Origin: Ascidia mentula
Lineage: Eukaryota > Chordata > Ascidiacea > Phlebobranchia > Ascidiidae
Assembly: GCA_947561715.1 (NCBI GenBank)
Contig: OX387202.1
Location: 12,847,001-12,911,000, forward strand
DNA: 64,000 nt
Direction: 5' to 3'
The notes below the pieces were generated by a model that was not told the origin of the DNA, made no database searches, and saw nothing but the letters and a program-made list of their open reading frames with translations. A program made the translations under genes and the position numbers. Shown here piece by piece: positions 13,853 to 57,760 of this stretch (within the stretch, counting starts at the first letter, position 1; each line of letters opens with the position of its first letter).

Positions 13853-14412
13853 ATTAGTGAATCGTTGTAATGTCTGGTAGAACGGAGTTGAACAAAGATT
13901 TCAATGCATTTCTTTGCAGTTTAGTCAGCGAAAAAGATTTTTGGCTGCAGGCATGCGGTTTGCAAACAATTTCGCGGGTCATTTGGCGAGGAATTTATGT
14001 TCTTATTTTCACAACATGTTGGTACAAAACAAAAAAAAGAAACGCAGCGAAATTTTTACTGCAGGAAGTTTTTTCAGGATGTGGGTTTGCTAGATGAATC
14101 GAGTTTTAAACAATCATGCTGACGGAACAGTCATCGTATACAGGATACAATACTGATGAATTCGTTTATGGTGTATTATACGCCATCAAAATTTAATCTA
14201 TTGTGCCACGAAAGAAACGTTCCAGCTTATACGGATTTTTTAGGTATATAAACTACTGTGCGGTATAAATGATTTATGGGTTAAACAATATGGGGATTTG
14301 CGCATAAATAAAGTATTAAATATCACCAGCTTAGTCAAAATTTTACTCAGGGAAACTATAGTGGCAGATTAGTTTGCAAGCTCCTAGAGAAAAAAAAACT
14401 GTGGAAAGTCCA

Positions 14413-17400
14413 ATGGGAAAACCAAAAGTGACGGATAACACTGTGGAAAATGCACTGGAAGAGGCTGGCGACTGTGGACTTTACCACATATGGTTGATGA
14501 TGTTGGTCGTTGTTCCCTGCATCATGGTGGGAGCAAATGTGGCCACCTCTGTGTTTGAAGACATGATACCGTCATACCGTTGTGACGTAAACTACACCGA
14601 TTGGTTGAATCAGGTAGGACGTCATCGGCCAGCAGTCCATCCCTTAATTGTTATTTTCTATTCTTCTGGTGTGTGGTGGAGACTGTTGTCACTACGCTTA
14701 TTTTCTTGCGGATTACAATAATTTTTATTATTTTGATTATATTTTGCAGACGTGCAATATTACAGTCAACGACGGAAGGCCTAAATTTCAACATTCTCCG
14801 AACGACAAAAATCCTGAGTGCTACAGGTGAACTTCTGTTTTGACATTTACAAAACCGTACAGAAACAGAGTTAAGGGGTTAATTTTACGGAATGTAGGCT
14901 ACTCAACTTACACGATAAATGGTCAGAAATAATATTATTTCAAAAACATGGTTTGAGGGCGTTCGCCTAATCTGACAACTCTAATAGTTTGTGCTATTGT
15001 TGTTGCTATTATAATTTCTAGGATAGGACTGGAACAACTTGATTATAACGATTTTATTGTATTTGAAACCTAATGAAATCTCGTTGTATAACTGATAAAC
15101 GTTGGTAAATATAATGTACATCTGTATGTGTCACAATGTAAGTTCCCATAAGTTATTACATAAACATCATTTGCAGAACATAGTGTATAAATGGTTACAA
15201 CACATTTGTGTGTACTTTACACATTGTACGATCAACTCCTTGAACCCAGCAGCGTTACATACAACTTCCGCGTTGCAGGTACAGCTTCACGAACGTCTCT
15301 ACGGTCGACTGCCACCAGTGGCAAAGCCAATTGACTAAAAACAACAGCCGCATATCTTTAACCGAATCAGACTTTGAAACCTGCGACCGCTGGACTTACG
15401 ACCGGTCGGATATGCGCGAAACCACGGTAACGGAGTTTTCATTGGTCTGCGGAAGCACGTGGGCTGGATATATTTCCCAATCATCGTTTATGTTCGGCGT
15501 GCTGATGGGAAGCGTTGCAATGGGATGGATTGCAGAGAGGTTGGCAACTTTTTCCTGGTTTTGAGCAGACGCGAAGTGTGATTACATGCCTGCGCAAGCA
15601 TATGAGACGAATGTGTTCCCTTTATTGGTTGACCTACATTTGATTTTGTTTTAAAAAAACTAAGCCAGTTGTTACTACTGTTACCCAAAACTCTGTTGCA
15701 CAAAACAAAGTTTTTTTTGCAATACTAGAGCATTGCAATACTTACAACAGAAGCATATATTCGTTTTACAAATAACTGTGTTTATTTAAACAAATGGGGC
15801 GTGTATGTATTTCTGTTAGACATCCGCCTGTCCTACTGGAAATGCGGGACCAATAAATAAAAACTGCGGAACCCGGCACATATCTGTGCTTTACCCAAAA
15901 TAGCTTCAAATACTGAAGGCATAATTCATGGATGTGACCTTTTTTGGTTTACCTGGATGCGCGTGGCCTCTTTTTCAACTGCGAGGCCCCATTTTCAGCG
16001 CGGGACATTTTTAGTCAAATCGGCTGAGTACTGGTCCTGACTGCATGAGTCTGTAGGAAAATAATCAACAAAACTAACCACATATTTAGAACCAAACCCA
16101 ATATGCAACCACTGTTTCAGATGGGGACGACGGCGTACCTTCCTCCTGTTTGGAATCGGTTCCTTTGCATTTGGAGTTGCGACGGCATTCGTTCGAACTT
16201 ACGTCGAATATGTTGTGTTGAGATGTCTTTTCGGATTTTTTCTGTACAACACCTTTCCCATCTTGTTTATACTGGGTATATATCGATATAGAGTTTTTCT
16301 TTTTAATGTTTATTGTTGTCAAGTGGTCAGTAACCCGTCCAATCAGAAATCACTATACCTGATCATTCGCCTTAATAAAATAAGTATTATTGAAAAAGTC
16401 ATTATATACGAATACGACATACACATTGAATCCAAAAAAATACAATGTACTCCAGGTGCTTAGTGTTGTACATTCCACTCGATAAAAGAGTCACTGCTAT
16501 TCACGGGGCATCGACTTACCAACACCGCACGCATTTCGGGTAACCAATGAAATTACAGGCACCGAGGCCAGAAATTGGCAAGAAATTACCCAATGAATAG
16601 ATATTTATGTAAAACTTAAAAATATTTAGGTAAAAATCTTTTGGTTCAAATTAGGCACCACCAACTAGCGGATTAACACGTACATTACAACGCGATGCCC
16701 GAGCAATCAAGTAAAATGTGATAATCTTACCAGCGTTGTAAATTTCAGTATCGGAACTCATCGTAGCACGTCGCCGGGCAGTCCTCGCACAATACGCCCA
16801 ATTTTTATTTGCTGTTGGTTACATGGTGCTCACTGCCATGGCGTTCATCACCCGACACTGGAGGTCGCTACAACTTTGTCTTTCCATTCCGTGTGGACTT
16901 TCGATTATATTGTGGTGGTGAGTGATTTTAAACTATGTTGGTGTCCACCCGCTAGACAGAAGATTAGATAATCGGGCACTAATGCCAAATTTGGCATGTC
17001 TTTGGTTGGAATGTGAAGCACTGCGCTGTGCTTTGTTCGGATTCGTATAAAGGTCAGACGGCCACGTTAAATTTGTTGCAAGGTTTCTTCCGGAGTCGCC
17101 AAGATGGCTGATTGCCAACAGAAAACGAAGAGAAGCTTTGAAAGTGGTGACAAAGATACAACGAGTGAATACAACCTCATTGTGCGGTTATTCCGGCAGC
17201 AGCAATGGTGCTGTACAGGGTAAGACGAACCGATAAATATTTTGAAAAAAAAACAAGGAAAAAAACTAATAAAAAACAAAATATACAAAAAACAAACATT
17301 AGTACGAATATTACTCTACCTTGCAGTTGGGGCACAAGAAGTTCCACTTACGGAGCGAGATGAGAGGGAGAAAGATGGATGTGATGGATCTTCAACAAAA

Positions 17401-22099: not shown

Positions 22100-25000
22100 A
22101 TGACTTCTAAGCCACGAAACATGGATGACCCTGTGTGTTGTTTGACTAACAAGGACCTTGAATTTCAATACGACAAACTGGCTTCAATCATCGAAAAGTC
22201 GAACCTGCTTGATGTTCCAATCGTTATTTATTCCATTGCTGGACCCGAGCGAACTGGAAAATCGTTTCTTCTCAACGTTTTCTGGCACTTATTGAAGGTT
22301 GATGGTGATGATTCTAAGGAGGTAATTTTATCTGAAAGTTAAGTTAACATTTTACAAATTTTGCATGTCTGGAATTTTTTTTTTCTGACGCAAACAAACC
22401 TGATTTCAGGTGACAGATAAGCAAACTCCACTTCCGCGAATATTTGAACACAATTTCCGCACAAAAGCTTTGACTAGAGGCATTTATATGACAACCAAAC
22501 CCATCATATTGACAGAAAATAAGACTGAGGTAAGTTTTGTAGTGCCAGAGTTACACGGGGTAGGCTTTTAGAGTCGAGGTGGAGCTTAAGTTTAAAAATA
22601 ATCCGGAATTTTGACCCGAATTTACATCCAGCTGCATCTGGATCTTACCAGTGAAAGATAAAACGATTTGTATTTCTTTCTTTTTGCATTTGTTAAGTTC
22701 AGTCATGTCAACTCCTCATACAGAGGCAAAGTTTTGAAACATCTGCTCAAAATAAATAAATTTGCACTATGGAGCATTTTTCTGAGTTAACACGATCGTG
22801 AAAACAAAGATGTGAGAAAGGTCCCCTACTAACACAACCAAGGTTTACTTTCTGTGAGCTCCAAACAAATGGCCACTAATTCGACCTATAAGGTCTCATC
22901 AGTGCAGCTTGGTGTGACTCTTCCAGACGACTTTGCCGACCAAATGGTCAGTTTCACCAGGATTACTTTGTTTGTACTGTTTGTCAGCTCGCCGTGTTTC
23001 TTATGGACACCCAAGGCATAAACTCCGGTGACAAGATCGAATGCAAAGAAGGGGACATTTTCTCCATAAGTTTGGGACTCAGTTTCATGCAAATTGTCAA
23101 CGTGGAGAAACGTTTGAAATATCCGGATATCGATACATACGCTGTGGGTTTGCAATGTATGTTTTTGCGTTATTTATACTCAAATATCTTTCGTACAGGC
23201 CCTTACACTTTTTGCCCAACATGTAAACGGTGTATCCGAAAAACAGAAGGTAACTGCTTCAGGCTTTATGGCAAACTAAGCTCACATAAATGTTTGTTTT
23301 TTAGAAATTGATGGTGTTGGTTAGGGATTGGAAATATACAGATGAGTATGAACATGGCTATGACGAAGGCACGAAATACTATGGAGTGAGTTAAGCCAAA
23401 GCGTTACGACATAGATTTTGATTACACAAATTAACTTTTAGGGGCTTATTTGAAAACACTCTTGCGCATTTTAGGCGAATTTTTTTTGAAGTAACGAGTG
23501 AAGAAAATCGACACGCAAATTTTAAATGGAAATTTGTTTCAGTAGGTCTTAATGCCTACTATGAAAAGCAAATATTTTTCAGAACATTTCACAAACACAG
23601 GAAATGAAACTTCAAATCGAATGTCTGAAAAGTTTCTATGCAAAAGAGGAATGTTTTTTGATGCCTCACCCCGGTAATGAAGTGGAAACACCGAACACAA
23701 AACTTCTGAGTGGTGGGTGTAGTTATATAACATGAATGAGTAATGTATATCATCCGACTATCAATGAATCTTTTTTCATTTTCTTTTAATCTTCATTAAC
23801 AGACATAAATCAGGCGGCATGGTCAAGGTTTAAAGAATTATTTCATGTACTCTTCTCATCATCTAACTTACAAGAAGCCTGCACCGTTGCACCAAAAGGA
23901 AAAGACTTTCTCCAGATGGCCAAATACCTAGAGGAAAAACTCGCCCAAGGAGACAGACTTGCAGCACCAAGTGGCTGTTTTAAGGTGAAAACGTTGCACC
24001 GAAAATTCTTAGTTTGCAAAATATCACTAAACGTGTTGCAGCGAATATTACGTTGATAAACTTCAAATACAAACTGAGGCTAATTTTCTTGTGGCCATCA
24101 ATTCCATCAATCTATTTAAACTTATGTTTTCAGAATTTTCTTGGGTTGGTCATAGAAATCGAAATCAAGGAGTCATGTCAAGTCTATAGGAATTACATGA
24201 CAGAAGTAAGAAGGTCTGCAAATTAGTGTTTTGTGATTAAACTCATTTTTTAAAACCTCGACGGGAGAGTATATTCGTAAGATACTAATCCCTAAACAAT
24301 GTTTACCTAATTTTTGTGATAATAATTTTGAAATGAAAAATATACATTTTGTTTTATTTTGAAAATATAGGAAAAGTCGATCGTGCGACATACTTTATAC
24401 AATTTAGCTCTTTTAGGAGCAGTGAGAAAAAACATTACCTGAGTAGTTTATGAGCTACATCAAAGGCACACTGCCGCTACATAACACATACCGGAGTGTG
24501 CAGATAATAAGAAATATATTTTCATTCGTAAGTTCACAGTCAAACAAGGAAATGAATTTCAAAGCATCCACGAAAATCGGGTTAAAACTTCTACGGAAGC
24601 ATTGAAAGAAAAAAAGTTAATCGAAGACATGACTCCACATGTCAACTCTCTGCACGAACTACTTGCAAAAGAATATAAGGTACAGTGATTAATTTAATTG
24701 CGTTTGATATTTTTAAAACTTTTTGAGGATTTAGAAATATAGATTGATGGTTTTATAAATCGCGATAATAACCAGATAATGAGAAAATATTTTCTTATTT
24801 GTGAACCAAACCTTTCGCAGTAAAATTATCAGCACAATTCTTGTCACCACATGAAAGTTATCGGCCTGAAACTGTTGCGAAAACAGCAACTCTGTGTTTA
24901 GTAAGGCATGACATTCTATCAATGAAATACTCCACACCAGCTGTTTAGATAATTAATTTAAATTTTAGATGCTGTTTGAAGAGGTCATGAAACATCAAAT

Positions 25001-28000
25001 AAATGAGTGCGTTAAATTCTACAAGGAACAGATGGAAGGCGTAAGTACTGATTCAGTGGCGCGTAGTATTAAATTATAAACACGCAAAAATTTTTGCCTT
25101 AAATTAAATTTTAAAAAAACACAGAACAAAGAATTTTTCAAAACTTGTAATTTTATTGACACAAAGCTGCGAATGTTTTTAGTTGTACTTTCAGTGTGCT
25201 CGCTTGAATGGACACGATTTAAACAAAAATCATGACGAGAAAGTGGATGCTGCAAAAACCAAGTTGCTTGAGCAAAATCCAATTGAGAAGGATTCGGCGT
25301 ACATCGGACGTTTGCAAGATGATATAGACGCAGTGTATGAGGTACCATTGTAAATATTGACTTTGTGTAATTACAGCAACAAACAGTAGTTTATAAAATC
25401 AATATTCTCAACATTCAAATAAACGACAAATAAACATTTTAGTACCTACAATCTAAACACAAGTTTGAAAAAATAGTAGCAAGTAAATGATTAAATTCAT
25501 GTTTAAATGCGACTGAGACTTTTCAAAGAATACATGCCGCGCATAGTATTCCAAGAACTTTTCAATTAAAATATAACTCATGTTGGGTTTGTCCAGAGGA
25601 AAACACTATGGCAATTAAAATTAAGCAAAAAATATAAATTACATGAGTGTTATCGTGTATTCTAGACTCTGTTTGCTGAAGTCATGAAAATCCAAACCGA
25701 TCAGTGCCTTCAATACTACAATGCACTTATACATGATGTAAGTACTGATGCAGTGTCGTGTACAGTTTTTTTGGAAATTTTATCACAACAAATCCAGGCA
25801 TAAAAACTTTTTTAGTGTGCAAAGTTGAACGGACGCGATTTAAAGAAAAAACATGACAAAAAAAGCGATGAAGCAGTATCTAAATTGTTGGAGCAAAATC
25901 CAATTCAGAAAGATTCTGCGTTTATCAAACGTTTGCAAGACGATATACATGCGGTATATGAGGTACTTTAAAACACTGTTGGCTTGACCTAATAAAAAAC
26001 TTGAAAATAGCAAAAAATTACTTTGCACATAATTCTTTAAGACTGAAATGCTTTCATGTAGAATATTTCGTGAGAAACTATTGTCAGCGTTGGTTTGTCT
26101 CGCATTGTGTTACCTTGATTGACATTTTTAATATAGCTTTGTGGCATACCTATCTCTTTTATTTACTCTACTTGCATAAAAAGTGATAAAGTAGGACTGA
26201 ATTCGTTGTAACTAACCTGCTAACTCTCACAATTACTGTCCTCAGGCTTTGTTTGAGACTGCCGCACAAAATCAAGTAGATGAGTGTCTAAAACATCACC
26301 AGGAACTTATGAATGATGTAAGTATACAGTCACGATTTGGGATTGGCTTAATAAACCAAACTAATTTGTTTCTGGCAAATATCCAACCACAAGCTGCGAA
26401 GAACTAAACATGTTGGGATGATCTCTAATTTCAGTGTGCGCAATTGAACGGAAACCAATTAGAAGAAAGGTTTAACAAGACAAGCAATGAAACAACCTTA
26501 AAACTCATGAGGGAAAATCTAATTCCGATAAATTCGGTGCACGTCCAGCGTCTACAGGCAGAAGTAAATTCGAAGTATAAGGTATGCTTACAATGTCTTA
26601 CGCTCTTTCGAAATGTAAGTCTACATTTCAAACAGTTTTTTTTTTAAATTAAACTCTTATTCTTTATGTCTTTATAGCAAACATAGGCAAACAGCGGCGC
26701 ACGGGCCAAATCTGTTCGTTGGTTCTTTTAAGTTGGCTGGCCTGTGGTTAGTGCAAGAGTCACTTTAAGAACACTGTTCATACCGTGGTTAATGGTAATT
26801 TCACTCCACACACTTTATACTCGCATGCATTGACCACTGGCACGTCTTTAAAATTTGTAAATTTGCCCACAGCTTGTGGAAAAACCTGTTTTGTAGACTT
26901 TTATACTTTCTTTGAAATTTTATTCTTCCTGGCAGCAACAATCACAATATATTTATTTTCAAGGTCAATTTAAAAATCATGATGCAGCACTTTATATGAC
27001 TTGGTGCAACTTTACACTGCAAAACCAGATAATAAAAAATTTTTTTTTGTTATTTGTGAAATAAACCTTTCGCAGTAAAATTATCAGCACAATTCCTATC
27101 ACCACATGAAAGTTATCTGCATGAAACTGTTGCGAAAACAGCAACTCTGTGTTTAGTAAGGCATGATTTTCTATCAATAAAATACTCCACACCAGCTGTT
27201 TACATAACTAATTTAAATTTTAGATGCTGTTTAAAGAGGTCATGAAAAATCAAATAAATGAGTGTGTTAAATTCTACAAGGAACAGATGGAAGGCGTAAG
27301 TACTGATTCAGTGGCGCGTAGTATTAAATTATAAACACGTAACAATGAAGTACAAAATTTTACATCAAAGTAAAAATTAAAAAAACACAGAACAAAGAAT
27401 TTTTTAAAACTTCCAAATGTAATTTTATTGACACAAAGCTGCGAATATTTTTAGTTGTACTTTCAATGTGCTCGCTTGAATGGACACGATTTAAAGAAGA
27501 ATCATGACGAGTAAGTGGATGCTGCAAAAACCAAGTTGCTTGAACAAAATCCAATTGAGAAGGATTCGGCGTACATCGGACGTTTGCAAGATGATATAGA
27601 CGCAGTGTATGAGGTACCATTGTAAATATTGACTTTGTGTACAGCAACAAACAGTAGTTTATAAAATCAATATTCTCAACATTCAAATAAACGACAAATA
27701 AACATTTTAGTACCTACAATCTAAACATAAGTTTGAAAAAATAGTAGCAAGCAAATGATTAAATTCATGTTTAAATGCGACAGAGTCTTTTCATAGAATA
27801 CATGCCGCGCATAGTATTCCAAGAACTTTTCAATTAAAATATAACTCATGTTGGGTTTGTCCAGAGGAGAACACTATGGCAATTAAAATTAAGCAAAAAA
27901 TATAAATTACAAGAGTGTTATCGTGTATTCTAGACTCTGTTTGCTGAAGTCATGAAAATCCAAACCAATGAGTGCCTTGAATACTACAAAGTACTTATGC

Positions 28001-31000
28001 ATAATGTAAGTACTGATGCAGTGTCGTGTACAGTATTTTTGAAAATTTTATCACAACAAATCCAGACATAAAAAGTTTTTTAGTGTGCAAAGTTGAACGG
28101 ACTCGATTTAAAGAAAAGACACGACAAAAAAAGCGATGAAGCAGTATCTAAATTGTTGGAGCAAAATCCAATTCAGAAAGATTCTACGTATATCAAACGT
28201 TTGCAAGACGATATACATGCGGTGTATGAGGTACCCTAAAACACTGTTGGCTTAACCTAATAAAAAACTTAAAAATAGCAAAAAATTACGTTGCACATAA
28301 TTCTTTAATATTGAAATGCTTTCATGTAGAATATTTCGTGAGAAATTATTGTCAGCGTTGGTTTGTCTCGCATTGTGTTACCTTGATTGACATTTTTAAC
28401 ATAGCTCAGTGGCATACCTATCTCTTTTATTTACTCTACTAAAAAGTAAAAGTGATAAAGTAGAACTGAATTCGTTCTAACTAACCTGCTAACTCTCACA
28501 ATTACTGTCCTCAGGCTTTGTTTGAGACTGCCACACAAAATCAAGTAGATGAGTGTGTAACATACGTCACAGAAAGCAGTGCTGGTATTGCGTAATGTTT
28601 TGCGTGTGTAACATACGTCACAGAAACCAGTGCTTGTATTGCGTAATGTTTTGCGCGCAGCTTTGCACATGTACTGCATAATCCCACAATGTGACCCAAA
28701 TGATTGAGCCATCGAATATTCTCGAGTAAAGTGATTCATTCAACATCCTGTTTACCACATAAAATGTTCTCCTATGCTTATGTCACATCACACCTATGTT
28801 CTTGTATTATATTACTTCAAGCGCCTCATGATATCACGTGACATTATTGACCAATCAGCTCTCATAATGGAGAGCGTAAAAAAGCCCAGGTTAGACCGGT
28901 AAATTCATTCTAATTCTATTCTAATTCATTCTATTTGATTCTATTTTGCTGGCATCCTAATAACGTTGTATTGAAAGTTGTAATGTACCGTCGTAATGAA
29001 GAAGATATCAGAAATGAATACAATTATTCGGGAAGAGACCTTGGTTCTGGGTGCTTTATAGAACGGGGCAGAAGCAGGTTTAACCATCAAAGAGACTTAA
29101 TAACCGCTCAGGCCATCGAGACCCTGTTAAATATCTCTGAGACCCTTAGAGTTATTTACAAGTGTCTAAAACATCACGAGGAACTTATGAATGATGGAAG
29201 TATACAGACACGATTTGGGATTGGCTTAATAAACCAAACTAATTTGTTTCTGGCAAATATCCAACCACAAGCTGCGAAGAACTAAACATGTTGGGATGAT
29301 CTCTAATTTCAGTGTGCGCAATTGAACGGAAACCAATTAGAAGAAAGGTTTAACAAGACAAGCAATGAAACAACCTTAAAACTCATGAGGGAAAATCTAA
29401 TTCCAATAGATTCGGTGCACGTCCAGCGTCTACATGCTGAAGTAAATTCGAAGTATAAGGTATGCTTACAATGTCTTACGGTCTTTCGAAATGTAAGTCT
29501 ACATTTAAAACAGTTTTTTTTTTAAATTAAACTCTTATTCTTTATGTCTTTATAGCAAACATAGGCAAACAGCGGCGCACGGGCCAAATCTGTTCGTTGG
29601 TTCTTTTAGGTTGGCTGACCTGTGGTTAGTGCAAGAGTCACTTTAAGAACACTGTTCATACCGTGGTTCATGGTAATTTCACTCCACACACTTTATACAC
29701 GCATGCATTGACCACTGGCACGTCTTTAAAATTTGTAAATTTGCCCACAGCTTGTGGAAAAACCTGTTTTGTAGACTTTTATACTTTCTTTGAAATTTTA
29801 TTCTTCCTGGCAGCAACAATCACAATATATTTATTTTCAAGGTCAATTTAAAAATCATGATGCAGCACTTTATATGACTTGGTGCAACTTTACACTGCAC
29901 AAACAAAATACCGTATTAATAAGTTGATATATATCTTATGTTGGGTATACCTGAGGATATCACTACAGCAATTAATACTGGGCAATAATTTACATGGGTG
30001 TTATCGTGCATTCTAGATTTTGTTTGCCGAGGTCATGAAAATCCAAACCAATCAGTGCCTTGAATACTACACGGAATTTATGTATGGTGTAAGTACTGGC
30101 GCAGTGATGTGCATAGTTTTGGTATACATTTTATCACGATAAAACCACGTATGAAAAGACTTTAACGTATCTGTTTTTAGTGTACCTACTTAACTGGACA
30201 CGAATTTAAAAAAAATCATGACAAAAAAAGTGGTGAAGCAGTATCTAAATTGTTGGAGGAAAATCCAATTCGGGAAGATTCTTCTTATATCAAACGTTTG
30301 CAAGACGATATACATGCGTTGTATGAGGTACTTCAAAACACTATTGGCTTGACCTAAATATAAAAATCAAAATCACAAAAAATTTAATTGCAAGTCATTC
30401 TTTGAGTCTGAAACGCTTTTTAATGTTGAATATAGTAGAAAATTTCGGGAGAAACTATTATTAGCGTTTATGCCCATATCTCGCGTTGAATTGACTTGTT
30501 TAACATGTTTCTTGCAGTTTTGTTTCATTCACTGTTCTATAGCATATATATTAAAGCGATAAGGTAGAACCGAATTGGTTGAAACCACCCTGCTAACTCT
30601 TCGAACCAATGTGCTCAGGATTTGTTTGAGACTGTCATGCAAAATCAAATAAACGAGCACCTGAAACACAACGAGGAACATATGACTGGTGTAAGTATAC
30701 AGATACTACTCGGGATAGGCAAAATAAACATTTTTGACAAATGCCCAAACATAAGTTACGAAGAAAATAAACGGAACGATCTCTAATTTCAGTGTTGGCA
30801 CTTGAACGGAGACCAACTAAAAGAAAGGTTTGACAAGATAAGCAGTGAAACAACCGTAAAACTGCTGTGGGAAAATCCAATTTCAGTGCATTCCGTGTAC
30901 GTCGAACGTCTACAGGCTGAAGTGAATTCAAAATATGAGGTACATTTACAATATCCAAAGTTTTTATTTGTGTTTGTTATACCTTGACTGTTATTCTTGA

Positions 31001-33300
31001 TACCTTTGAAGACTAATATACTCCCAAAGGAATTGTAATCTGTCTGGCTGTAAATAACTCTAAAAAGTGTCTAAGAGATATTTAAAAGTGCCTCGATAAC
31101 GTGATCGCGAGATGAGCTTCTTGGGTTGTAAAACCTGCTTCTACCTCGTTCTGTAAAGCAACCAGATGGATAATTTCCCGAGTAATTACTGCGTTGAAAA
31201 CTGTTACCAGCTTCATTACGACTCTGCAATGGGAAAGTTGATTCTACCTGGTTGAAAGAGACTTGCAGTTAATATCAGATAAGCAGTATAACTGTAATAC
31301 GATAGAATTACGATAGAATAGAATAGAATAGAAGCGAATAGAATGAATTTACAGGTACATACTGGGCTTTACAAAGCTCTTCATACTGAGCGCTAATTGG
31401 TCAATAATGTCACGTGATATCACGAGTCGCTTGAAGTAATATAATACAAGAACATAAATAAGGATATTGTTAGCCAGGAGACATCGAGGTTATATGTAAG
31501 CCGGATATAGGTGATTCACGTGTGCTGGAGAGTCATTGGTGAAAACGTTCTGATGCAACACTTACGGAAGGTGATTCTTCGCGTGTTATCTGGGACGCAT
31601 TCAAGTGATTAGTTTAATACAAGGATAAATATGTATCCTGTAAGAATATTTTATGTGGTAACCAGTATATTAAATGAATCACCTATACTCGAGAACACTC
31701 AATGGGTTAATCATTTAGGTCGGAACTTGCGAAATATTCAATACATCTGGTAACGGACTTGCAAATGCTTGTACAATGCTGCCAACGAAATGAATCACTG
31801 GTTTCTGTGACATGTTACAACACCTACATGTATTACTTGACAAACCTCTCTTGTTATAGACGACTTGTTTTGAGTTTACTGCAACGCTTAATGGGATAGT
31901 GAAAGATAAATTGATATTTAAACATAATACCTTGCATGTTTTTTCTCGCTGTCCTGGCGACCTAGCGTATATTATAACCAATAAAAAATTGCTACTAGTT
32001 AAGAAAGTGAATTTATGCGCATTCGAATGATCTATTTTGCTACAGATTCAACACGGAATACGTCTGATCGTGAAATTTGCAAACAAGTGGGCAGACGATG
32101 TCAAAAAGGTTCCACAACTCTTTGCAATACTAAATGCTAGCTTATAAAGTTCAAAAGTGTTTGGCTTGTTCAAAAACGTGTAACAATATTATCTTCGGTG
32201 CGAAATATCTGGAGTTGACGAGTCTAAAAAAGAAAGCCAGAGCTAAAATGCTGTTTATCATAAGTGGACGTTTCGAACTCTTACTTATATGATAAACAGC
32301 ATTTTAGCTCTAGCTTTCCTTTTTAGAATATTATCTTCTATCACAAGGTTTACAGGCATTGCAGCATTGCTGGATCAGCCACTTTTTCCCCCCAGGTCGG
32401 AGCATAATCTGAAAAATCAACCTTTTCGGGCAACCTTCACATATACGTGTTAATTTATTTTTATTTTCCATTTTAAACAAAATGTTTTAACTTCCAACCG
32501 AACATATTCGCAGTATGTAAACAGAATATTGTATATTTTGTGTTAATATTGCATGGTGAGAATATACTACACTTCAAAAATGCATTGTTCTTTCTCTTCT
32601 TTAAGTTAATGCACTACTTTTGGTACTCTTGTCCCTCTTTACACTAAAGGAAGTGTAGTTTACTCTCACCATGCAATATTGCACTTTATTCTAAAAGAAT
32701 GTAAAGAAATCTGCACTTTATTGTGTATTTTTCTCCTATTTTGTACATTTTATTTTGCGGAAACATTTTTCACAATGTTTAGTTTTTGAAATAAGGTTTA
32801 ATTGAAAATGCAATACGACAAAACAAGTTTTAATTCAAAAAGTAATAAAACGTAACGTGTTTTGATGTTAATAAATATTCCTAAACGTTTGGCAGAAAAA
32901 GTTCGATGAAGATGAGATATCCAAGTTTTTCTCACAAGAAGGAAAAAAATATAATCGTTTGATTTCTGAAGAGCTGAAAAGCGAAGTCTCTCGGAAAGTC
33001 GTCTTGGAAGAATTTAACACGATGATGAAGAGGAAGTTCGACACGGAGCTTGTTCGTCGCAGAAGAAATCAAAGAGGTGCCAAAATGACCGTGGCAGTCG
33101 CTGGCGGTTTGGCTGCAGGGGCTCTGACGATTCTGATTCCTCCAATTGGAGCTGCAGTAGCGGCTTCTGCATATGCTGTTGGTGGCCTTAGTGCTGCAGG
33201 TGGTGTCTTACTAGGAATGCCCGCCTGGTTTCTTACTAGGTTTGCAGGTCCCCCTAAGAAAGCTCCAGATTTGACACAGAGGCCTCAAAACCAATACTAG
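22100..33300 (+). CDS. Atlastin-like GTPase with a tandemly repeated stalk (27 exons recognised)
   Basis: Dynamin-superfamily GTPase; atlastins fuse ER membranes. GTPase exons: 22100-22321, 22410-22529, 22988-23143, 23199-23249, 23305-23385, 23583-23712, 23803-23984. Motifs: P-loop GPERTGKS, switch-I region LTRGIYM, DTQG, and VLVRDW as the G4 RD; then CFLMPHPG as in atlastins. Stalk exons alternate 72 and 147 nt, all phase 0: 24134-24205/24533-24679, 24969-25040/25195-25341, 25666-25737/25816-25962, 26246-26317/26435-26581, 27224-27295/(27467-27613), 27934-28005/28084-28230, (28516-29192)/29313-29459, 30017-30088/30181-30327, 30619-30690/30793-30939. Bracketed exons are damaged. Then 32046-32108 (63 nt) and 32896-33300, which ends with a Gly/Ala-rich hydrophobic segment like a membrane hairpin. 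Without the damaged exons the product is about 1,050 residues, against about 560 for human atlastin. A GBP-like gene is the alternative name. Confidence 0.85.
22857..22910 (-). ncRNA. Second hammerhead-like sequence, more decayed
   Basis: On the minus strand: AGCTGCA, CTGATGA, stem II GACCT/AGGTC with loop TAT, then GAAT in place of GAAA, a degraded stem III region, and GGAGCT, which pairs only partly with the first strand. It matches the copy at 10738-10792 over the 5' 28 bases and the flank CACCA(A), so both derive from one repeat family. It lies antisense in intron 2 of the atlastin-like gene. Predicted inactive. Confidence 0.5.
24770..27022 (+). repeat. Segmental duplication unit A (three stalk modules)
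   Basis: This block and unit B (27023-29898) match along exons and introns, apart from the LTR inserted in unit B. Shared landmarks are AACCAGATAAT at the start and the stretch ending ACTTGGTGCAACTTTACACTGCA at the end (quoted in two parts: ACTTGGTGCAACTT, TACACTGCA). Introns are nearly as similar as exons, so the duplication is recent compared with the older module repeats. Confidence 0.8.
26672..26985. mobile_element. Possible hAT-like fragment in an intron, present in both duplicate units
   Basis: GGCAAACAGCGGCGCACGGG followed by CCAAATCTG resembles the inner part of a hAT terminal repeat. The same stretch is at about 29552-29865 in unit B, so the insertion is older than the segmental duplication. 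The other end is not clear and the ends given are approximate. Confidence 0.3.
27467..27613 (+). pseudogene. Decayed stalk exon (147-nt type) of the atlastin-like gene
   Basis: Copy of exon 25195-25341. The acceptor TTTCAG is changed to TTTCAA, and codon TAA stands at 27512-27514 where the parent has AAA. The remainder, including the donor GAG/GTACC, is almost unchanged. Because all neighbouring exons are phase 0, skipping it would leave the reading frame intact. Host exon, so the changes are given. Confidence 0.75.
28516..29192 (+). pseudogene. Stalk exon (72-nt type) split by a solo LTR
   Basis: Copy of exon 26246-26317. The left part (28516 to about 28555) and right part (29161 to about 29192) of the exon flank a 605-bp LTR. 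The donor after the right part reads GGAAGT where the parent has GTAAGT, so it is also lost. Phase-0 skipping of the exon would keep the frame. Confidence 0.7.
28556..29160 (+). mobile_element. Solo LTR of an LTR retrotransposon (fossil)
   Basis: Begins TGTAACATACG and ends GTTATTTACA, giving TG...CA ends with a 5-bp terminal inverted repeat, flanked by a 4-bp duplication AGTG. About 605 bp. It begins with two tandem copies of an approximately 50-bp segment, contains a CCAAT box and an A-rich TATA-like stretch, and has an (ATTCT)n tract in its second half. No internal region is present, so this is an incomplete element. A relative lies at 31049-31819. Ty3/gypsy-type is likely but not proven. 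Confidence 0.7.
31049..31819 (-). mobile_element. Second solo LTR of the same family, antisense (fossil)
   Basis: On the minus strand it starts TGTAACATGTCACAGAAACC and ends AGAGTTATTTACA, about 770 bp. It shares with the 28556-29160 copy the 5' start, the block with ATATCACGTGACATTATTGA, the (ATTCT)n tract and the 3' end. Flanking duplications are not evident. The two copies differ markedly, so they are separate and not recent insertions. It lies in the intron between 30939 and 32046. Confidence 0.65.
32224..32326. repeat. Near-perfect long hairpin in an intron
   Basis: Left arm 32224-32265 and right arm 32283-32326 are reverse complements over about 42 bases, with two substitutions and one two-base difference; the loop is 17 nt. 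Core of the arm: GAGCTAAAATGCTGTTTATC. It may be a foldback element or a microRNA-like precursor transcribed with the atlastin-like pre-mRNA. Confidence 0.75.
32545..32680. mobile_element. Short terminal-inverted-repeat element (MITE-like)
   Basis: Arms 32545-32574 and 32651-32680 are reverse complements at 28 of 30 positions, starting AATATTGCATGGTGAGA, with a 76-nt centre. It is in the same intron as the 32.2-kb hairpin. Superfamily unknown. Confidence 0.6.
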
Positions 33301-34688: not shown

Positions 34689-37600
34689 ATGGGCAACAAA
34701 AAAGAGACGGATAACACCGTGGAAAAGGCATTGGAAGAGGCTGGCGACTGTGGACTTTACCACATATGGTTGATGATATTGGTCGTTGTACCCTACATCA
34801 TGGTGGGAGCAAATGTGGTCGCGTCTGTTTTTGAAGACATGATACCGTCATACCGTTGTGACGTAAACTACACCGATTGGTTGAATCAGGTAGGGCTTCA
34901 TCGGCCAACAAGGCTTACTTTTTACTTTTTGTTTTAAATAAGAACTGAGACACAAACGATGGTAGAGACATTCAGTTCCAGCTATATATATAGTATTTAA
35001 TTTTTTTTTGCAGACGTGCAATATTTCAATTGACGAGATCACGAAAACCATTCAACAACTAAAAAACAACAAAAATCCGGAATGTTTCAGGTGACTATCT
35101 CCAGTTTTGATATGTCAAACGAAAGAAAGTCAAAACCTAAATAGCTGCAATTACACAACTGTATAGTTTTGTGTATAGATGCATTATTGGTATCACCGTT
35201 CCTTTAAAAAATATTTACATGCAATCAGTTTGTGGCTCGGAAATATACATAGGAACTTTTGTGAACTGCGGCCTGAAGTCTTAAAACCAAACATAATGGC
35301 GTAATCAAGTTATTCCTCAGGGAAAATCAAATTTAAACCACACTGTTATTTGTCCTAAATTATAACTCACCATTATTGCATTTGGTTCTGCATTTTCGGT
35401 ATTTATATTGGAGGTTAAACGGTTCCTACATATATTTGTGCATTGAACAGTTAATCTTTTCAAACAAACATGATATACTATTCCCTCATGGTAGATACAA
35501 CTTTGCGAACGTCTCCATGGTCGACTGCCACCAGTGGCAAAGTCAATTGAACAAAAACAACAGCCGCATATTCTTGACTGAATCAGACTTTGAAACCTGC
35601 GACCGCTGGACTTACGACCGGTCGGATATGCGCGAAACCACGGTAACGGAGTTTTCATTGGTCTGCGGAAGCACGTGGGCTGGATATATTTCCCAATCAT
35701 CGTTTATGTTCGGCGTGCTGATGGGAAGTATTGCAATGGGATGGATTGCAGAGAGGTTGGCAACTTTTGTAACGTTATTAGCAAACCAGATGTAGACACA
35801 AGGAACGATTAACTGCAAACGTTTGTAAACTGCAAGCATTTACGTTGAAGCCTTATGTGCAGAATAAGCATGATTTTGGATTTGACTTTGATTTGTAAAC
35901 CACGCGTATTTTCTAATTTACCGCTTCTTTATATTCAAGTATCTTCCTAAAAGTGAGCGTGTGGGTCTGTGATTCCCAAAACTTCCCCACGAAAACTTTG
36001 TTTGTTGCAGTGATTGGACATTTAATGGCGAAGCGTGCTTTTAAAAGCATTTTTGCACATTTCCACAATTGGACCTCATATTTGTATTGCGATATCCAGG
36101 GCACCCATGCATCACAAAACATGAAATAAGCTACTATAAGCTACTAAAAAAATTTAAGCACTGTTGCGATCGCCACGCGTACATTGACCCAATATGCAAC
36201 CATTGTTTCAGATGGGGACGACGACGTACTTTCCTCTTGTTTGGAATCGGTTCCTTTGCCTTTGGAGTTGCGACGGCATTCGTTCGAACTTACGTCGAAT
36301 ATCTTGTGCTGAGATGCTTTTTCGGATTTTTTTTGTACAACATCTTTCCCATCTTGTTCATACTTGGTGGGTGATAATGACTTGATATTTGTTTTCGGCA
36401 CGTGGTTGGTAGTCGTCCAATCAGAAAACGCATTACCCGTACTAATCCCCTTGCGTTGTTAATATAAGCCCTATTAAAGCAGAAATTATTCTTTTCCTGT
36501 ACGACGCTTTTCCCGTCTTGTCCAAACAATGTGAGAATAATTTTTTTAGTTTCTAAATTTTATTCACATGGGTAGTTGTTCGTCCAACGAAAAACGCAAT
36601 GTTGAGGCAAAAAATTATTCTATTAAAATTGTGCGGCGTACCTGGATGTAAGACCGTTTCATCTTGGGAGCTGATTATCACAATACTAACAAATAACATT
36701 ATATGCCACTTGCTTTATTACAACAAACATAGCTTGACGAAAATGTTGCAAAAATTGTATCGAACAAAAATTACATTTAAATAAATTGGTCAAAGGCCTG
36801 CTGCTATTTTTTAATTACCTTTAACTACAGTAGCTTTTGTAGTAGCTACATTTTTACAGTTTTAAGAGTATTTTTTTTCTCGCAAATGTTTTAACTTTAA
36901 AACTTACAGTATCGGAACTCATCGTAGCACGTCGCCGGGCAGTCCTCGCACAATACGCCCAGTTTTTATTTGCTGTTGGTTACATGGTGCTCACTGCCAT
37001 GGCGTACATCACCCAACACTGGAGGTCGCTACAACTGTGTCTGTCCATTCCGTGTGGATTGTCGCTTATTCTGTGGTGGTGAGTGATTTTAAACATTGTT
37101 GGTATCCACCGTAAACAGAAGACAGGTTTATTGAAGTTGTAGCTTCATTTATTGACTAGCAAAAATGTTTATGCAATGACATGATTAGCACGATCCACCC
37201 TGCACAGGTCGTTGATCCGGGTGGGCTACAATGCCTAGGCTGCGAAGCCTGCAAACCTAATGATCGCGTTACGTTAGCTGTAATCGCCACGGACCTGCTC
37301 AGTGGGGCGAACCTGCCATACATCCCACTTCATGAAACATTACTGCGTTGTCTGACTATGGTGCGGTTGAGATCCCCTATGTGAAGGTTGACTGATAAAT
37401 TGAGCGCTTGCGCGCCTCCTCGGCCACACCCTATGAATTAACTTTTTGGTAGATCTGCAAGAAGGTTAATAAGACATTGAATTTCTTGCTAGGTTTCTTC
37501 CGGAGTCGCCAAGATGGCTGATTGCCAACAGAAAACGAGGAAAGGCTTTGAAAGTGATGACGAAGATACAACGAGTCAATGCAACTTCACTGTGCTGTTA

Positions 37601-43337: not shown

Positions 43338-46300
43338 ATGTTGTTAAAGTATTATTTGCAAGCTTTCCTGCTTTGTTATCTGAAATGCAAGAATCAATGC
43401 AATTCGTTGACAGGTAAGCTGTGATTCAAATTTGCTCACAAAATTATTCTGTCCTGCTTATAAGTCTAATAAATATTTCGTTACCACAGCAACGTGTGAC
43501 ACAAAGTTATCAGATTTAAATTACTCAATTTCAAAAGTAATCTGCCCACCCAACTGCTGGAGACAATATTCGGATTTGTGTGGAAGTGATGATTACGCAA
43601 AAGGTCCCCTTTGTCTGGCTGCAATGCATGCAGGACTGATGGATAGTAAGTTAAATTGACAGTACCCTGGCATGTGTAACCGATTTTCTTTCATTTGAAC
43701 TCAAACCAAATATTTTTATAAAGATGATGGAGGCTACTTTGAAGTATACAAAAGTAACAAACTACCAGAATATAAAGGATTGGACAGGAACGGAGTGAGA
43801 AGCAAATCTTGTTCGTTTGCAAGATGGTCGTACACATTTGAAAGTAAGCTATGCTCCGGGTAGCGTTTCGGTTAGAATAAATAATTACTATTTATGTAAA
43901 TATAGTGAAATGCAGCACGACAGGGAACAGTGAGTTTTCTGTAACTGATGTACTTTGTCCACCTGGTTGTTCGTCCAACTACGTCTGTGGAACAAATTCG
44001 TACAACAAGAATTCCTCGGTTTGTGCTTCTGCCATTCACGCTGGTAATTTGTCGCGTAAGTTGGTGTAGTTAACACTTTGTGGTTTGCTTGAATCAAACA
44101 TGAATATTTTCAGGAAGTGGAGGATACGTGACGTTTTATTCAAGAAACGGAAGACGCTCATTTATTGGTTCGACCAAGGGTGGTGTAACCAGCAAATCGT
44201 GTGGTTCATCAAGTCAATACTTTTCGTTTACTCGTAAGTTAACAAAAAACCTTCTAACATATAAACAGGGATTTAAAGTGAAAAGAAGTAATAAATGAAA
44301 TAACCCTTGTTTTCTAATCAATATTTTAGGTGAAGATTGTTTGAGAACTTGTTCTAAGAACGGTAAATGTTTGTCTGGAGTTAACGACCAACATTGTTCA
44401 TGCAAGCCTGGGTTGATCGGGCCAGACTGTGAAATGGGTAAGAAATTGCCCTGAAAGCTGGAATATTTGGTGCCATCGCAAAAGGCAGGAAAATTAAAGA
44501 CAAATCCTGCATAAAGTAAACGTTGCAACTCACATAGATTCTGGCGCCTATATATTCCTAGCTGACGTCAACCTACAGGGAGAAAATGTTAATCATTTCA
44601 TGTTTTTCATGTTTAAAAGCAGCAGAATATTTGATAGTTTTGAATTTCCGGCTTTACGATGTTAAAGGTGCTGTTTCGTAATGAAGTTCATGCCCCGAAA
44701 TGTTACTGAGCATGTGACAGTTCACTGAAATTGATTGTAATTATCTTATTTCAGACATAAACGAATGCGAGAATGTAATGCACAACTGTCATCAACATGC
44801 AACTTGCATCAACACCGTCGGCAGTTTTCAATGTTCTTGCGAAGCAAACTACACCGGAGATGGCATTGATTGTTGTAAGTTTGACGTCGTTTTTTCAATA
44901 TTCAAATATTGGGATTCCAACCTCCGGGTCGCGAACTGGTTTGAGTCCGTGATGCATTTGTAACCGGTCAGTAGAAAAGGGAAAATGATAGCCTTTCTCA
45001 AGGATGCCACATTCTGTATGACGATCAGCTAAACGAAATAGCCTTGGGTGCTAACTGTGGTTATAATCGAATTACAGACTAAATAAACTACTTTTTACGC
45101 AACCTATTACCCTATAGTGTGCTATAGGGCCGTGAAGTCAACTCTTCCTATGGAGTAAGAATGCAAATTCACATCATAAAACTTGATTCCTTTTTAGATC
45201 CAGATTTCTGTGCACAAAATCCTGGTATTTGCCAGAACAAAGGAACTTGCGTGGATACAAAAACCTCCTACAATTGTTCATGTGCCCACGGGTACAGTGG
45301 ATCACATTGCGAAAAAGGTAAGATTTTGTATTTTTGTGTTTGGTTTCTCTTTGGTTGAAAGGAATTCAATTTATTAACAATGTTTATGCAAAAGACTTGA
45401 AAATGCCAGGTAAATTCTGCTTAAAAATAATACGCTACAACTCACATTGATTCTGGCGCCAATCTTTTCTTAGCTGACGTCAAGTAACACGAAGAAAATG
45501 TTAATTATTTCATGTTGTATTATTTTTCACATTTAAACAGCAGAATAATTGATAGTTCACAACTTTCAGGCTTACGAACTTTCACTTATAGCCGTGTTGA
45601 AGGTGATTTTCTTTAATGAAGTTCATGCCTCACGTTTTTTTCGGAGCTAAATGCCACTCAGTATGTGACAGTCCACTGAAATTGATCGTAATTATCATAT
45701 TCAGATATAAACGAATGCGCGAATGTAATGCACAACTGTCATCAACATGCAACTTGCATCAACACCGTCGGCAGTTTTCAATGTTCTTGCAACGCAAACT
45801 ACACCGGAGATGGCATTGATTGTTGTAAGTTTGACGTCGTTTTTACAATATTCAAATACAGGGATTCCAACCTCCGGGCCGCGAACCGGTTGAGTCCGTG
45901 ATGCATTTCTAACCGGACAGTAGAAAAGAGCAAAATAATGGCATTTTTTAAGGATGCCACATTCTGTATGACGTTCAGCTAAACGAAATAGCCTAGGGTG
46001 CTTAACTGTGGTTATAATCGAATTACAGACTAAATAAACTACTTTTTACGCAACCTATTACCCTATAGTGTGCTGTAGGGCCGTGAAGTCAACTCTTCCC
46101 TGGGAGTAAGAATGCAAATTCACATCATGAAACTTGATTCCTTTTTAGATCCAGATTTCTGTGCACAAAATCCTGGTATTTGCCAGAACAAAGGAACTTG
46201 CATGGATACAAAAACCTCCTACAATTGTTCATGTTCCCACGGGTACAGTGGATCACATTGCAAAAAAGGTAAGATTTTGTAGTTTTGTGTTTGGTTCTTT

Positions 46301-49300
46301 TTGGATGAAAGGAATTTAATTTATTAACAATGTTTATGCAAAAGACTTGAAAATGCCAGGTAAAATCTGCCTAAAAATAATACGCTACAACTCACATTGA
46401 TTCTGGCGCCAATCTTTTCTTAGCTGACGTCAAGTAACACGAAGAAAATGTTAATTATTTCATGTTGTATTGTTTTTCACATTTAAACAGCAGAATAATT
46501 GATAGTTCACAACTTTCAGCCTTACGAACTTTCACTTATAGCCGTGTTGAAGGTGATTTTCTTTAATGAAGTTCATGCCTCAGGTTTTCTTCGGAGCTAA
46601 ATGCCACTCAGTATGTGACAGTCCACTGAAATTGATCGTAATTATCATATTCAGATATAAACGAATGCGCGAATGTAATGCACAACTGTCATCAACATGC
46701 AACTTGCATCAACACCGTCGGCAGTTTTCAATGTTCTTGCAACGCAAACTACACCGGAGATGGCATTGATTGTTGTAAGTTTGACGTCGTTTTTACAATA
46801 TTCAAATACAGGGATTCCAACCTCCGGGCCGCGAACCGGTTGAGTTCGTGATGCATTTCTAACCGGACAGTAGAAAAGAGCAAAATAATGGCATTTTTTA
46901 AGGATGCCACATTCTGTATGACGTTCAGCTAAACGAAATAGCCTAGGGTGCTTAACTGTGGTTATAATCGAATTACAGACTAAATAAACTACTTTTTACG
47001 CAACCTATTACCCTATAGTGTGCTGTAGGGCCGTGAAGTCAACTCTTATCTGGGAGTAAGAATGCAAATTCAGATCATGAAACTTGATTCCTTTTTAGAT
47101 CCAGATTTCTGTGCACAAAATCCTGGTATTTGCCAGAACAAAGGAACTTGCATGGACACAAAAACCTCCTACAATTGTTCATGTGCCCACGGGTACAGTG
47201 GATCACATTGCGAAAAAGGTAAGATTTTGTTGTTTTGTGTTTGGTTCTTTTTGGATGAAAGGAATGCAATTTATTAACAATGTTCATGGTGTTCGAAACA
47301 TAGGCTCGTTTCCAACCTGCAAGGACGCGTTACAAAACGGCCTTAACGTAAGCGGAGTCTACAACTTAACTTCTCCTCTGACTTTCCAGGGATATTGCGA
47401 CATGGATGGTAGAGCTTGGCTGGTGAGTTTGACTCTTGAGGCTAGAACTGTATCCTAAGTTTAATGGTTGGGAAGCGTTCGGTGGTCGTTTACATGACAA
47501 GTTATTGTCTGAACATCTTACCTTGGTTATAATAAATACCAGGTGTTCCAGCGCCGTTATGATGGATCTGTGAGTTTCGATAGAGATTGGGTGGATTACA
47601 AGAACGGGTTTGGGAATCTATCAACAGAATTTTGGATGGGTTCGTATTGCAATAAAGCAATCCTTAACTAAACGCCTTACAAATTTAATTAAAAACTATG
47701 TACAACTGCTGTTAAATTTTGAATAATAGTTGGTTTTAAATTTAATGCATCTGCTGAACATGTACTGAGTGTTATAACTTGTGCCCACCCAGTTAAATAT
47801 ACAGGCCTACCAAGCTAAACGTTTCAAGCAAGCTTCGTAACAATCCTAGAATCAATGTAACATTATCAGTTAATACAATTTAAATTCCAGTGTTTTCAGC
47901 AATATTATTACAACCAACAAATTTTATCAGGTTTAGAGAAACTGCATCAAATCACCAGTGCGTCCACTAGATGTCGCCTTCGTGTTGACCTTCAAGATTT
48001 TTCCGGAGATCAAGGATTTGCCGAGTATAGGTAAGAATATGACAATTTGACGTTTTCAATTGAATGCCATTGTTTCAATGATAATTTACCCGATGCTGCC
48101 ATGTCGTCATAACTAACAAAATCTTAAAAGACATTAGGGAATACCCCCCTTATTACGTCAGATTCCCAAAATTCGGGATTTAGGTTTGAAACAACACAGA
48201 ATATTCTTGCTGTGTTTTAATGCATTTACTCGGTTCGGAATAATTATGAAAACAAAAAGTTTAGATACCGCACACACATAGGGATGGTAATCAACTCGTA
48301 ACGACCCCACATCACCGTTCTTCAGGTTTGCTCGATCGCTTGGTCGCGGATTGCCGGGACCGAGCTCAGTGGGGCTCAGATTGGGTCGAACGCCACCTTT
48401 TTGCGTTTAGAGAAAGTGGCTGCAGAAAATTTTCTTTCCCTTGATTCCAAATCTTCTGAAGCGTAGGTATCTGGAAGACAGTTCAAGTAAAATTAATCAA
48501 GGCCAAACCGTTTGACAAGTGATGGCAGCAATCTAGTGAATATTAGTGCTGTGTACCGCATCGATATATGGGATAAAAAGATTATTATATTCTCAATCTA
48601 CCACCCATGCATAATCCAGTGTTTGAAATTTCGATTTTCTGTCCAACATGCTCGGCTCCCAATGTTTTGAATGAGGCAACAAAAATCCCGTAATCGCGAC
48701 GTGTAAGACGCTGGCGCAACTTGATTGTCAGTGTATAAGTTGTATAGTGTAAACTCTCTGTGTTCTCTTTGCCCACCCCTGGGTTAGCTGCTGGTCGTTG
48801 CGTGGTTGATTGGATATTGTTGGGCTTCTATGCAAGTAAATGCGTGCATTGGCTTGCAGAGTTAATTCCTTAGGCTAGTGGTTCTTATCCGGAAATTTTA
48901 GGGTTTTAGGTGGATAATTAGTCGGCACCGAAATACACAAAAGTAGTCGGAAAAGAAATATAATGATCTGTATTCACTGTGTGTTGTACACTTATTGGCA
49001 CTTGGTAATGCCATGCGGGAGAAAAGGTTAAAAAAGTATAACAGATATAGCAAAAATGCAATAATTAAATTCTTAGTTAAAAAATGTAAATACCAGTGGG
49101 ATACAAGGATTCCGCTTACACTGAATGTGGGAAATGACAGAAAAAAGGTTAAGAACCACTGCCTTAGGCGATAGTAGCAGTGTTGCAGGAAAGTCTGTTG
49201 CCCAGATGAGTTTATGTGGTCGTTGTTGCCCAACTCCTTGTGGTAAAATCTTGAGTGCCAAGTACTGACCTTTGCCAAAACGTTGCATCTTGACTGGAAA

Positions 49301-57600: not shown

Positions 57601-57760
57601 CTTTAAACTAGCTATCCACCGAACAGGACCAACCCCTTTCTCGAGGGTGTTTTGGCTGATGTTAACGCCACACCGAACCAATGAGACAAAGCAGGCTCCG
57701 CGCTCTAGCGCTCACTCCCGGATGACACCTCCAAAAACTTTCTCCACGTTATCTTAACGA
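54642..57760 (+). mobile_element. Degenerate LINE, APE endonuclease and reverse transcriptase parts (Tx1/L1-like, tentative)
   Basis: At 54642 MASYLKICTLHVNGLGQPPK and FDIFCLKETH are the start of an APE-type endonuclease. At 54960 NIYAPSGTNHY and FTGDFNSVTDPTLD are its middle motifs. At about 56480 FVNGFAA and AYSDDVTLVV with SGLKLNPNKTEAI are reverse transcriptase motifs (YxDD with Ser in place of Ala). At 57290-57340 HCYL...ETFSHFLNHC is a Cys/His C-terminal motif of LINEs. The coding is spread over several frames with stops (for example after 54836, 55445 and 55782) and the fingers/palm middle is missing, so it is inactive. The plus strand is very rich in C and poor in G over the whole element. 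Clade assignment is by look only. Confidence 0.75.

Follow-up and report, generated by a model that had tools for sequence, protein, structure and literature searches.

Atlastin-type GTPase genes with a repeated stalk exon pair in the ascidian Ascidia mentula

Introduction

Atlastins carry one three-helix bundle, two transmembrane segments and an amphipathic helix, and in their mode of action the heads dimerise upon GTP binding, the three-helix bundles rearrange and the membranes are drawn together; how the stalk turns head dimerisation into membrane approach is still debated according to the available excerpt of this source (PMC12312388). Long arms exist in the superfamily, since the region between the GTPase and the membrane segments of plant RHD3 is called 'much longer' than the atlastin bundle in the excerpted part of PMC3866526. 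The silkworm BmAtlastin-n, a divergent atlastin paralog with a coiled-coil middle domain and antiviral activity, has 770 residues and no transmembrane segment, and the excerpt of PMC4926086 describes no repeated module in it. The same excerpt reports that a search for guanylate-binding proteins (GBPs) found none in Ciona, and a review asks, in the portion available, whether atlastins took over defence in animals that lack GBPs (PMC9005921). The open-licence literature yielded no variable-number exon-pair array in atlastin relatives, and for atlastin in ascidians it gave unrelated work only, as judged by listing.

Here we describe a gene within a stretch of 64,000 nucleotides, referred to as the window (C70:12847001-12911000), from a genome of 195.8 Mb in 79 contigs that was searched for its relatives. 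Two GH6 cellulase matches above the family threshold (E 9e-6 and 1e-4) agree, indirectly, with a tunicate source, as GH6 among animals is known from tunicates. The gene shares with the atlastins (ATL1-3 and Drosophila atlastin) the GTPase domain, several intron positions and the order of a stalk followed by a hydrophobic segment, and with the ordinary atlastin of this genome a 72-nt exon for the first stalk helix; like BmAtlastin-n, it is a divergent atlastin paralog. It differs from atlastin in that seven (window gene) to eleven (its paralog) intact full stalk modules are present at the gene level, followed by a terminal half-module and a Gly/Ala-rich tail. With moderate confidence we assign it to a GTPase family derived from atlastin, which has multiplied here and whose stalk has grown by exon-pair duplication, the product being a putative membrane-anchored tether or coat.

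Results and discussion

The GTPase head is of the atlastin type

The window gene starts with an ATG at 22100 on the plus strand, and its seven GTPase exons (Table 1) hold the motifs GPERTGKS, DTQG, VLVRDW and CFLMPHPG in frame. The domain matched Pfam GBP (PF02263, 3e-24), the N-terminal domain of GBPs, whose model covers atlastins too. In a PDB search the best match was atlastin-3 (7e-21), followed by atlastin-1 chains (3e-19 to 6e-18), with GBP5 far below at 9e-7. The GBP C-terminal domain (GBP_C, PF02841) was absent from the Pfam scan of the window chain at E 1, and when single modules were scanned it matched 2 of 25 weakly (best E 0.0054), no better than some unrelated families. Judged by sequence, the GTPase is of the atlastin type and nearer to atlastin than to GBP, which bears out the reading in the first-pass annotation. 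None of the PDB matches up to E 0.001 was named Sey1 or RHD3, and we know of no tandem exon-pair repeat in Sey1p or RHD3. With joined chains, blastp aligned the window GTPase to the genome's own atlastin at 3e-26 (29.5% identity over 271 columns); in an exon-by-exon genome search the ordinary atlastin was absent among the 112 matches listed.

Table 1. Positions of the exons and modules of the window gene (numbered within the window), and module numbers of its relatives elsewhere in the genome
Feature	Position	Strand	Modules	Basis or remark
GTPase exons 1-7 and linker	22100-22321, 22410-22529, 22988-23143, 23199-23249, 23305-23385, 23583-23712, 23803-23984	+		splice signals, frame, Pfam, PDB
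Module 1	24134-24679 (A 24134-24205, 72 nt; B 24533-24679, 147 nt)	+		introns flanking A in the same columns as in ordinary atlastin
Module 2	24969-25341 (A 24969-25040; B 25195-25341)	+		exon length, phase, borders
Module 3	25666-25962 (A 25666-25737; B 25816-25962)	+		exon length, phase, borders; B fold predicted
Module 4	26246-26581 (A 26246-26317; B 26435-26581)	+		exon length, phase, borders
Module 5	27224-27613 (A 27224-27295, intact; B 27467-27613, broken)	+		B acceptor AG to AA, in-frame TAA
Module 6	27934-28230 (A 27934-28005; B 28084-28230; both intact)	+		exon length, phase, borders
Module 7	28515-29459 (A from 28515, broken; B 29313-29459, intact)	+		A insertion and donor loss
Module 8	30017-30327 (A 30017-30088; B 30181-30327)	+		exon length, phase, borders
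Module 9	30619-30939 (A 30619-30690; B 30793-30939)	+		exon length, phase, borders
Recent tandem duplicate (modules 5-7) of the modules 2-4 block, with an insertion inside it	27023-29904	+		93.5% and 98.1% identity
Short terminal-module exon, 63 nt	32046-32108	+		also in paralog
Last exon: helical stalk end, Gly/Ala-rich hydrophobic segment, short polar tail, stop TAG	32896-33300	+		sequence, hydropathy
Window gene			nine module positions
Paralog			eleven
Relative	C69		one
Relatives	C52 at 1372k, 1381k, 1387k, 1395k, 1402k		one each	weak scores, exon B length uncertain
Relative	C52 at 1352k		one or two
Relatives	C71, C73		two each
Relatives	C52 at 1362k, C2		three each

The module array of the window gene is partly broken

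The GTPase exons are followed by modules of two exons, exactly 72 nt (A) and 147 nt (B) long, phase 0 and bordered by AG/GT. Nine such pairs had been proposed from the sequence, and exon sizes, phase and borders agreed with that proposal; the completeness of all nine did not hold, as 7 of the 9 pair positions and 16 of the 18 module exons are intact while exons 5B and 7A are broken. Exon 7A matches module 4's exon over 42 nt, then runs into an insertion of ~0.6 kb (about 28557-29165 of the window), and its donor GT has become GG; diverged inverted copies of parts of the insertion were found at 31049-31721 with 77-85% identity. A stalk repeated ten times was therefore an overstatement for this gene, because ten intact modules cannot be made with 5B and 7A dead. 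The predicted end of the array, a 63-nt exon and then a last exon with a Gly/Ala-rich hydrophobic segment, was found as described. By eye, the 7A insertion ends in GTAA/TTACA between copies of AGTGT and resembles a small DNA transposon, and the copies at 31049-31721 sit in the intron upstream of the 63-nt exon.

Modules 5-7 are a copy of modules 2-4. Positions 24770-26291 align with 27023-28560 at 93.5% identity over 1542 columns, and 26283-27025 with 29161-29904 at 98.1% over 744 columns; the copying is a fresh example of array growth. When the exons were joined by script, the frame stayed open for 1053 residues without 5B and 7A and for 980 residues without 5A, 5B, 7A and 7B.

This state of the array bears on whether the window copy works at all. 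It could be a pseudogene or a decaying gene, or modules 2-4 and 5-7 could be two alleles joined by the assembler, so that the paralog described below would be the only working long-stalk gene. The lost acceptor and stop in 5B, the insertion and lost donor in 7A, and the adjoining position of two blocks that are 93-98% identical fit such an account, but the remaining exons are open, keep their splice borders and join to 980 or 1053 residues, and modules 1-4 differ from those of the paralog under constraint. We regard this account as rather unlikely in its full form. The long-stalk design is probably present in the window as a decaying or allelic variant and in the paralog as the intact example.

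An intact paralog carries eleven exon pairs

The paralog lies on the minus strand at C70:12945692-12935967, 56-65 kb downstream of the window gene. It has the same seven GTPase exons and eleven 72 + 147 nt pairs, followed by the 63-nt exon and a last exon similar in kind; 11 of the 11 pairs are open with AG/GT borders, and the 31 joined exons encode 1262 residues with no internal stops. The exon-pair repeat is thus beyond chance, as an independent paralog has all eleven pairs open. Its intron 2 contains a long array of a 9-bp repeat.

Two similar plus-strand genes, SLC22-like by eye, flank the window gene (14362-14718 and 34690-36400), and a third of this kind stands beside the paralog near 12934681; a Pfam search with two short stretches of the SLC22-like genes of the window gave no match. 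A similar gene begins after both the window gene and the paralog, which suggests the duplication and inversion of a block comprising two or more genes.

Exon pairs are copied as units

An identity matrix sorted the modules of the window gene into module 1, modules 2, 3, 6 and 8, and modules 4 and 9, and those of the paralog likewise; window module 1 shares 11-18 of 73 residues with modules other than paralog module 1. Likeness is high within a gene (66/73 between paralog modules 6 and 7, 62/73 between window modules 3 and 6), and window module 3 shares 54/73 residues or less with any paralog module. Like modules are often closer within one gene than to those of the paralog, a pattern that agrees with repeated duplication of single exon pairs or of a few together. 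The first-pass annotation had proposed serial exon-pair duplication, and the copying of modules 2-4 into 5-7, the eleven pairs of the paralog and the module identity classes all support it. The pairs may have been multiplied by unequal crossing-over, which would be harmless to the frame because all module exons are phase 0; a phase-0 exon pair of this kind can be multiplied without breaking the frame.

The same property would allow alternative splicing. With all module exons in phase 0, transcripts could include few modules or a single one, and the array could be a cassette for variants of ordinary stalk length. The phase-0 exons with AG/GT borders among the intact modules of both genes, the frame that stays open when 5B and 7A, or 5A, 5B, 7A and 7B, are left out, and the two sequence classes that recur along the array are all consistent with a cassette. 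However, exons A and B of one module keep the same class, so pairs are copied as units, which speaks against the cassette, and we consider it unlikely.

Between the window gene and the paralog, modules 1-4 gave dS 0.33, dN 0.16 and dN/dS 0.49 by the Nei-Gojobori method (Fisher test against neutrality, p 4e-4). The four like-numbered module pairs ranged from 0.29 to 0.79 in dN/dS, other pairings reached 1.1 (window 9 vs paralog 8), and the recent pair of window modules 3 and 6 gave 1.27 from only 13 changes. Constraint on the modules is present but weak, and between recently copied modules it is slight or missing. Over the 68 codons compared in exon 1 (22100-22303 in the window), dS was 0.034 and dN 0.062; silent divergence is here about tenfold below that of modules 1-4 (0.034 vs 0.33). 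The low divergence of exon 1, with dN above dS, is perhaps due to gene conversion.

The module likely descends from the atlastin stalk

The ordinary atlastin gene of this genome is located at C67:11388356-11379000 on the minus strand (Pfam GBP 7e-87, GBP_C 6e-6), and the first stalk helix is encoded there by one exon of exactly 72 nt, phase 0/0. In an alignment of four sequences, 5 of the 8 window introns up to module 1 match those of ordinary atlastin in column and phase (120, 194, 271, 338, 362). Two more lie near (79 vs 75, 172 vs 175); they agree in phase, and the exons that they end have the same length in both genes (222 and 156 nt). One window intron (column 221) is unshared, and 2 of the 9 ordinary-atlastin introns (246, 404) are missing from the window gene.

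We compared a profile of 25 modules with three atlastin three-helix bundles and obtained a score of 18.6, against 10.7 for the reversed profile and 17.9 for the best of 200 column shuffles. The linker plus module 1 scored 23.8 (reversed 13.5, best of 200 shuffles 21.7). In both tests 0 of 200 shuffles reached the observed score, with a narrow margin, and the profile alignment to the atlastin bundle was collinear over 130 columns. The hhalign probabilities for the module and for the linker plus module 1 were low, 6.6% and 9.8%. Atlastin was missing from the PDB results of hmmsearch with the module profile (E up to 10) and with the profile of linker plus module 1 (E up to 5), and from those of a search with four joined modules; a tblastn search of phages with one module gave no match. 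Exon B of module 3, folded alone, was predicted to form helices at residues 6-27 and 35-48 (mean pLDDT 86.5, pTM 0.44).

The proposed origin of the module in the atlastin stalk therefore gained agreement from exon length, intron columns and the shuffle tests, and none from the PDB profile searches. These failed searches and the low hhalign probabilities are what one would expect if an atlastin-like GTPase had been joined to a helical repeat with no relation to the atlastin stalk. Such a coincidence would have to account for an exon length and for flanking intron columns and phases equal to those of ordinary atlastin's first stalk helix, as well as for the two shuffle tests and the collinearity over 130 columns, and we hold it to be quite improbable. 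Shared descent of the module with the atlastin stalk is likely and rests mainly on gene structure.

The gene family has relatives with one to eleven modules

The last exon had 24 genome matches at E 0.01, itself included. Of these tails, 21 could be paired with an upstream GTPase match within a 12-kb limit, but the match assigned to C52:1411353 is also that of a closer tail, which leaves 20 with an unshared GTPase; the tail exon is thus common to about 20 genes with their own GTPase, many of them clustered. Module counts were taken from 13 GTPase-bearing genes, including a member on C2 whose tail is outside the 24 matches, and the numbers found were 1, 2, 3, 9 and 11 (Table 1). At C52 1372k exon A alone was found, and the linker exon has a stop. 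The 72 + 147 nt rule is looser elsewhere, with B exons of 147 to 159 nt in the C2 and C52 1362k genes and one A exon of 75 nt in the C73 gene. In a GTPase tree the family stands apart from atlastin (support 100) and the window gene groups with the paralog (support 69); the branch leading to atlastin is long and the root weak, so no module number is put forward as ancestral. The subfamily of the window gene has both DTQG and DTEG forms. At C52:1408705-1411718, three module pairs and a tail exon occur, and the 3.3 kb upstream of them contained no match to the GTPase; the locus may be an orphan stalk or belong to a gene whose head went unseen.

The model of the GBP GTPase domain gave at least 154 exon matches in the genome (contigs C52, C67, C71, C72, C2 and C70), by which measure the GBP-domain family is very large in this animal. 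These matches cannot decide whether the animal has GBPs, because the model also covers atlastins. Relatives with 1, 2, 3, 9 and 11 modules in one genome would make the relation of stalk length to tethering distance and to fusion directly testable.

Membrane end and possible function

In the last exon of the window gene, the 19-residue Kyte-Doolittle mean is at least 1.6 within residues 62-95, with a maximum of 1.96; the corresponding segment of the paralog covers residues 62-103 (maximum 2.09), and ordinary atlastin reaches 2.29. Only a short polar end follows this hydrophobic segment. Because AlphaFold modelled the last exon poorly (mean pLDDT 52.6, residues 61-109 under 50), the membrane anchor stays putative. 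Pfam names for the tail were rejected, since all matches fell below the curated cut-offs.

We hypothesize that the product would be held in the membrane by its C-terminal segment, with three-helix bundles in series bearing its head. If GTP binding makes the heads dimerise, as it does in atlastin, the protein may tether or coat membranes at a distance set by the number of modules. Placed end to end, with each bundle estimated at about 3-4 nm by helix length, eleven bundles would measure ~40 nm. A hydrophobic-moment test for helix 3 continuing into the next module as one amphipathic helix was negative (p 0.56), and moment tests on single helices were negative too (exon A p 0.13, helix 2 p 0.23, helix 3 p 0.06). 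A jointed chain is therefore as likely as a rod, and we do not claim a rigid rod. As an ordinary atlastin gene is kept elsewhere in the genome, fusion of the endoplasmic reticulum (ER) need not be the job of the multi-module family.

The family expansion, together with the rather fast protein change, suggests an immune or stress role. The protein could then be an immune GTPase that coats membranes of pathogens or vacuoles, in the manner of vertebrate GBPs or BmAtlastin-n, and not a tether between two membranes. The abundance of GBP-domain exon matches (at least 154), with a model that covers atlastins too, the roughly 20 subfamily genes, many of them clustered, a dN/dS of about 0.5 and the antiviral activity reported in the excerpt on BmAtlastin-n (PMC4926086) would all suit an immune coat. 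On the other hand, the ends of the window and paralog tails lack the CaaX motif, which is a lipid signal, and we find a coat of the GBP kind possible, if less than probable. For the multi-module family as a whole, the analogy with BmAtlastin-n and the question raised in the review mentioned above suggest a role in defence, and the genes offer a hint of an atlastin-derived defence family in an invertebrate. More speculatively still, stalk length could be evolvable and perhaps variable among individuals, the copy number of 1 to 11 setting the reach of a jointed tether or coat, in tens of nanometres, under immune-like selection; we advance this as a doubtful proposal.

Other features of the window

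Rfam and tRNA scans of the window gave no matches. On the minus strand, one open frame occurs twice, at 45704-46045 and 46654-46995, 950 bases apart and identical in 341 of 342 bases, and the pair is a very recent tandem duplication. Open frames at 54873-57754 resemble a LINE-type retrotransposon, and within them positions 56186-56692 matched the reverse transcriptase family RVT_1 at 2e-6, just under Pfam's cut-off.
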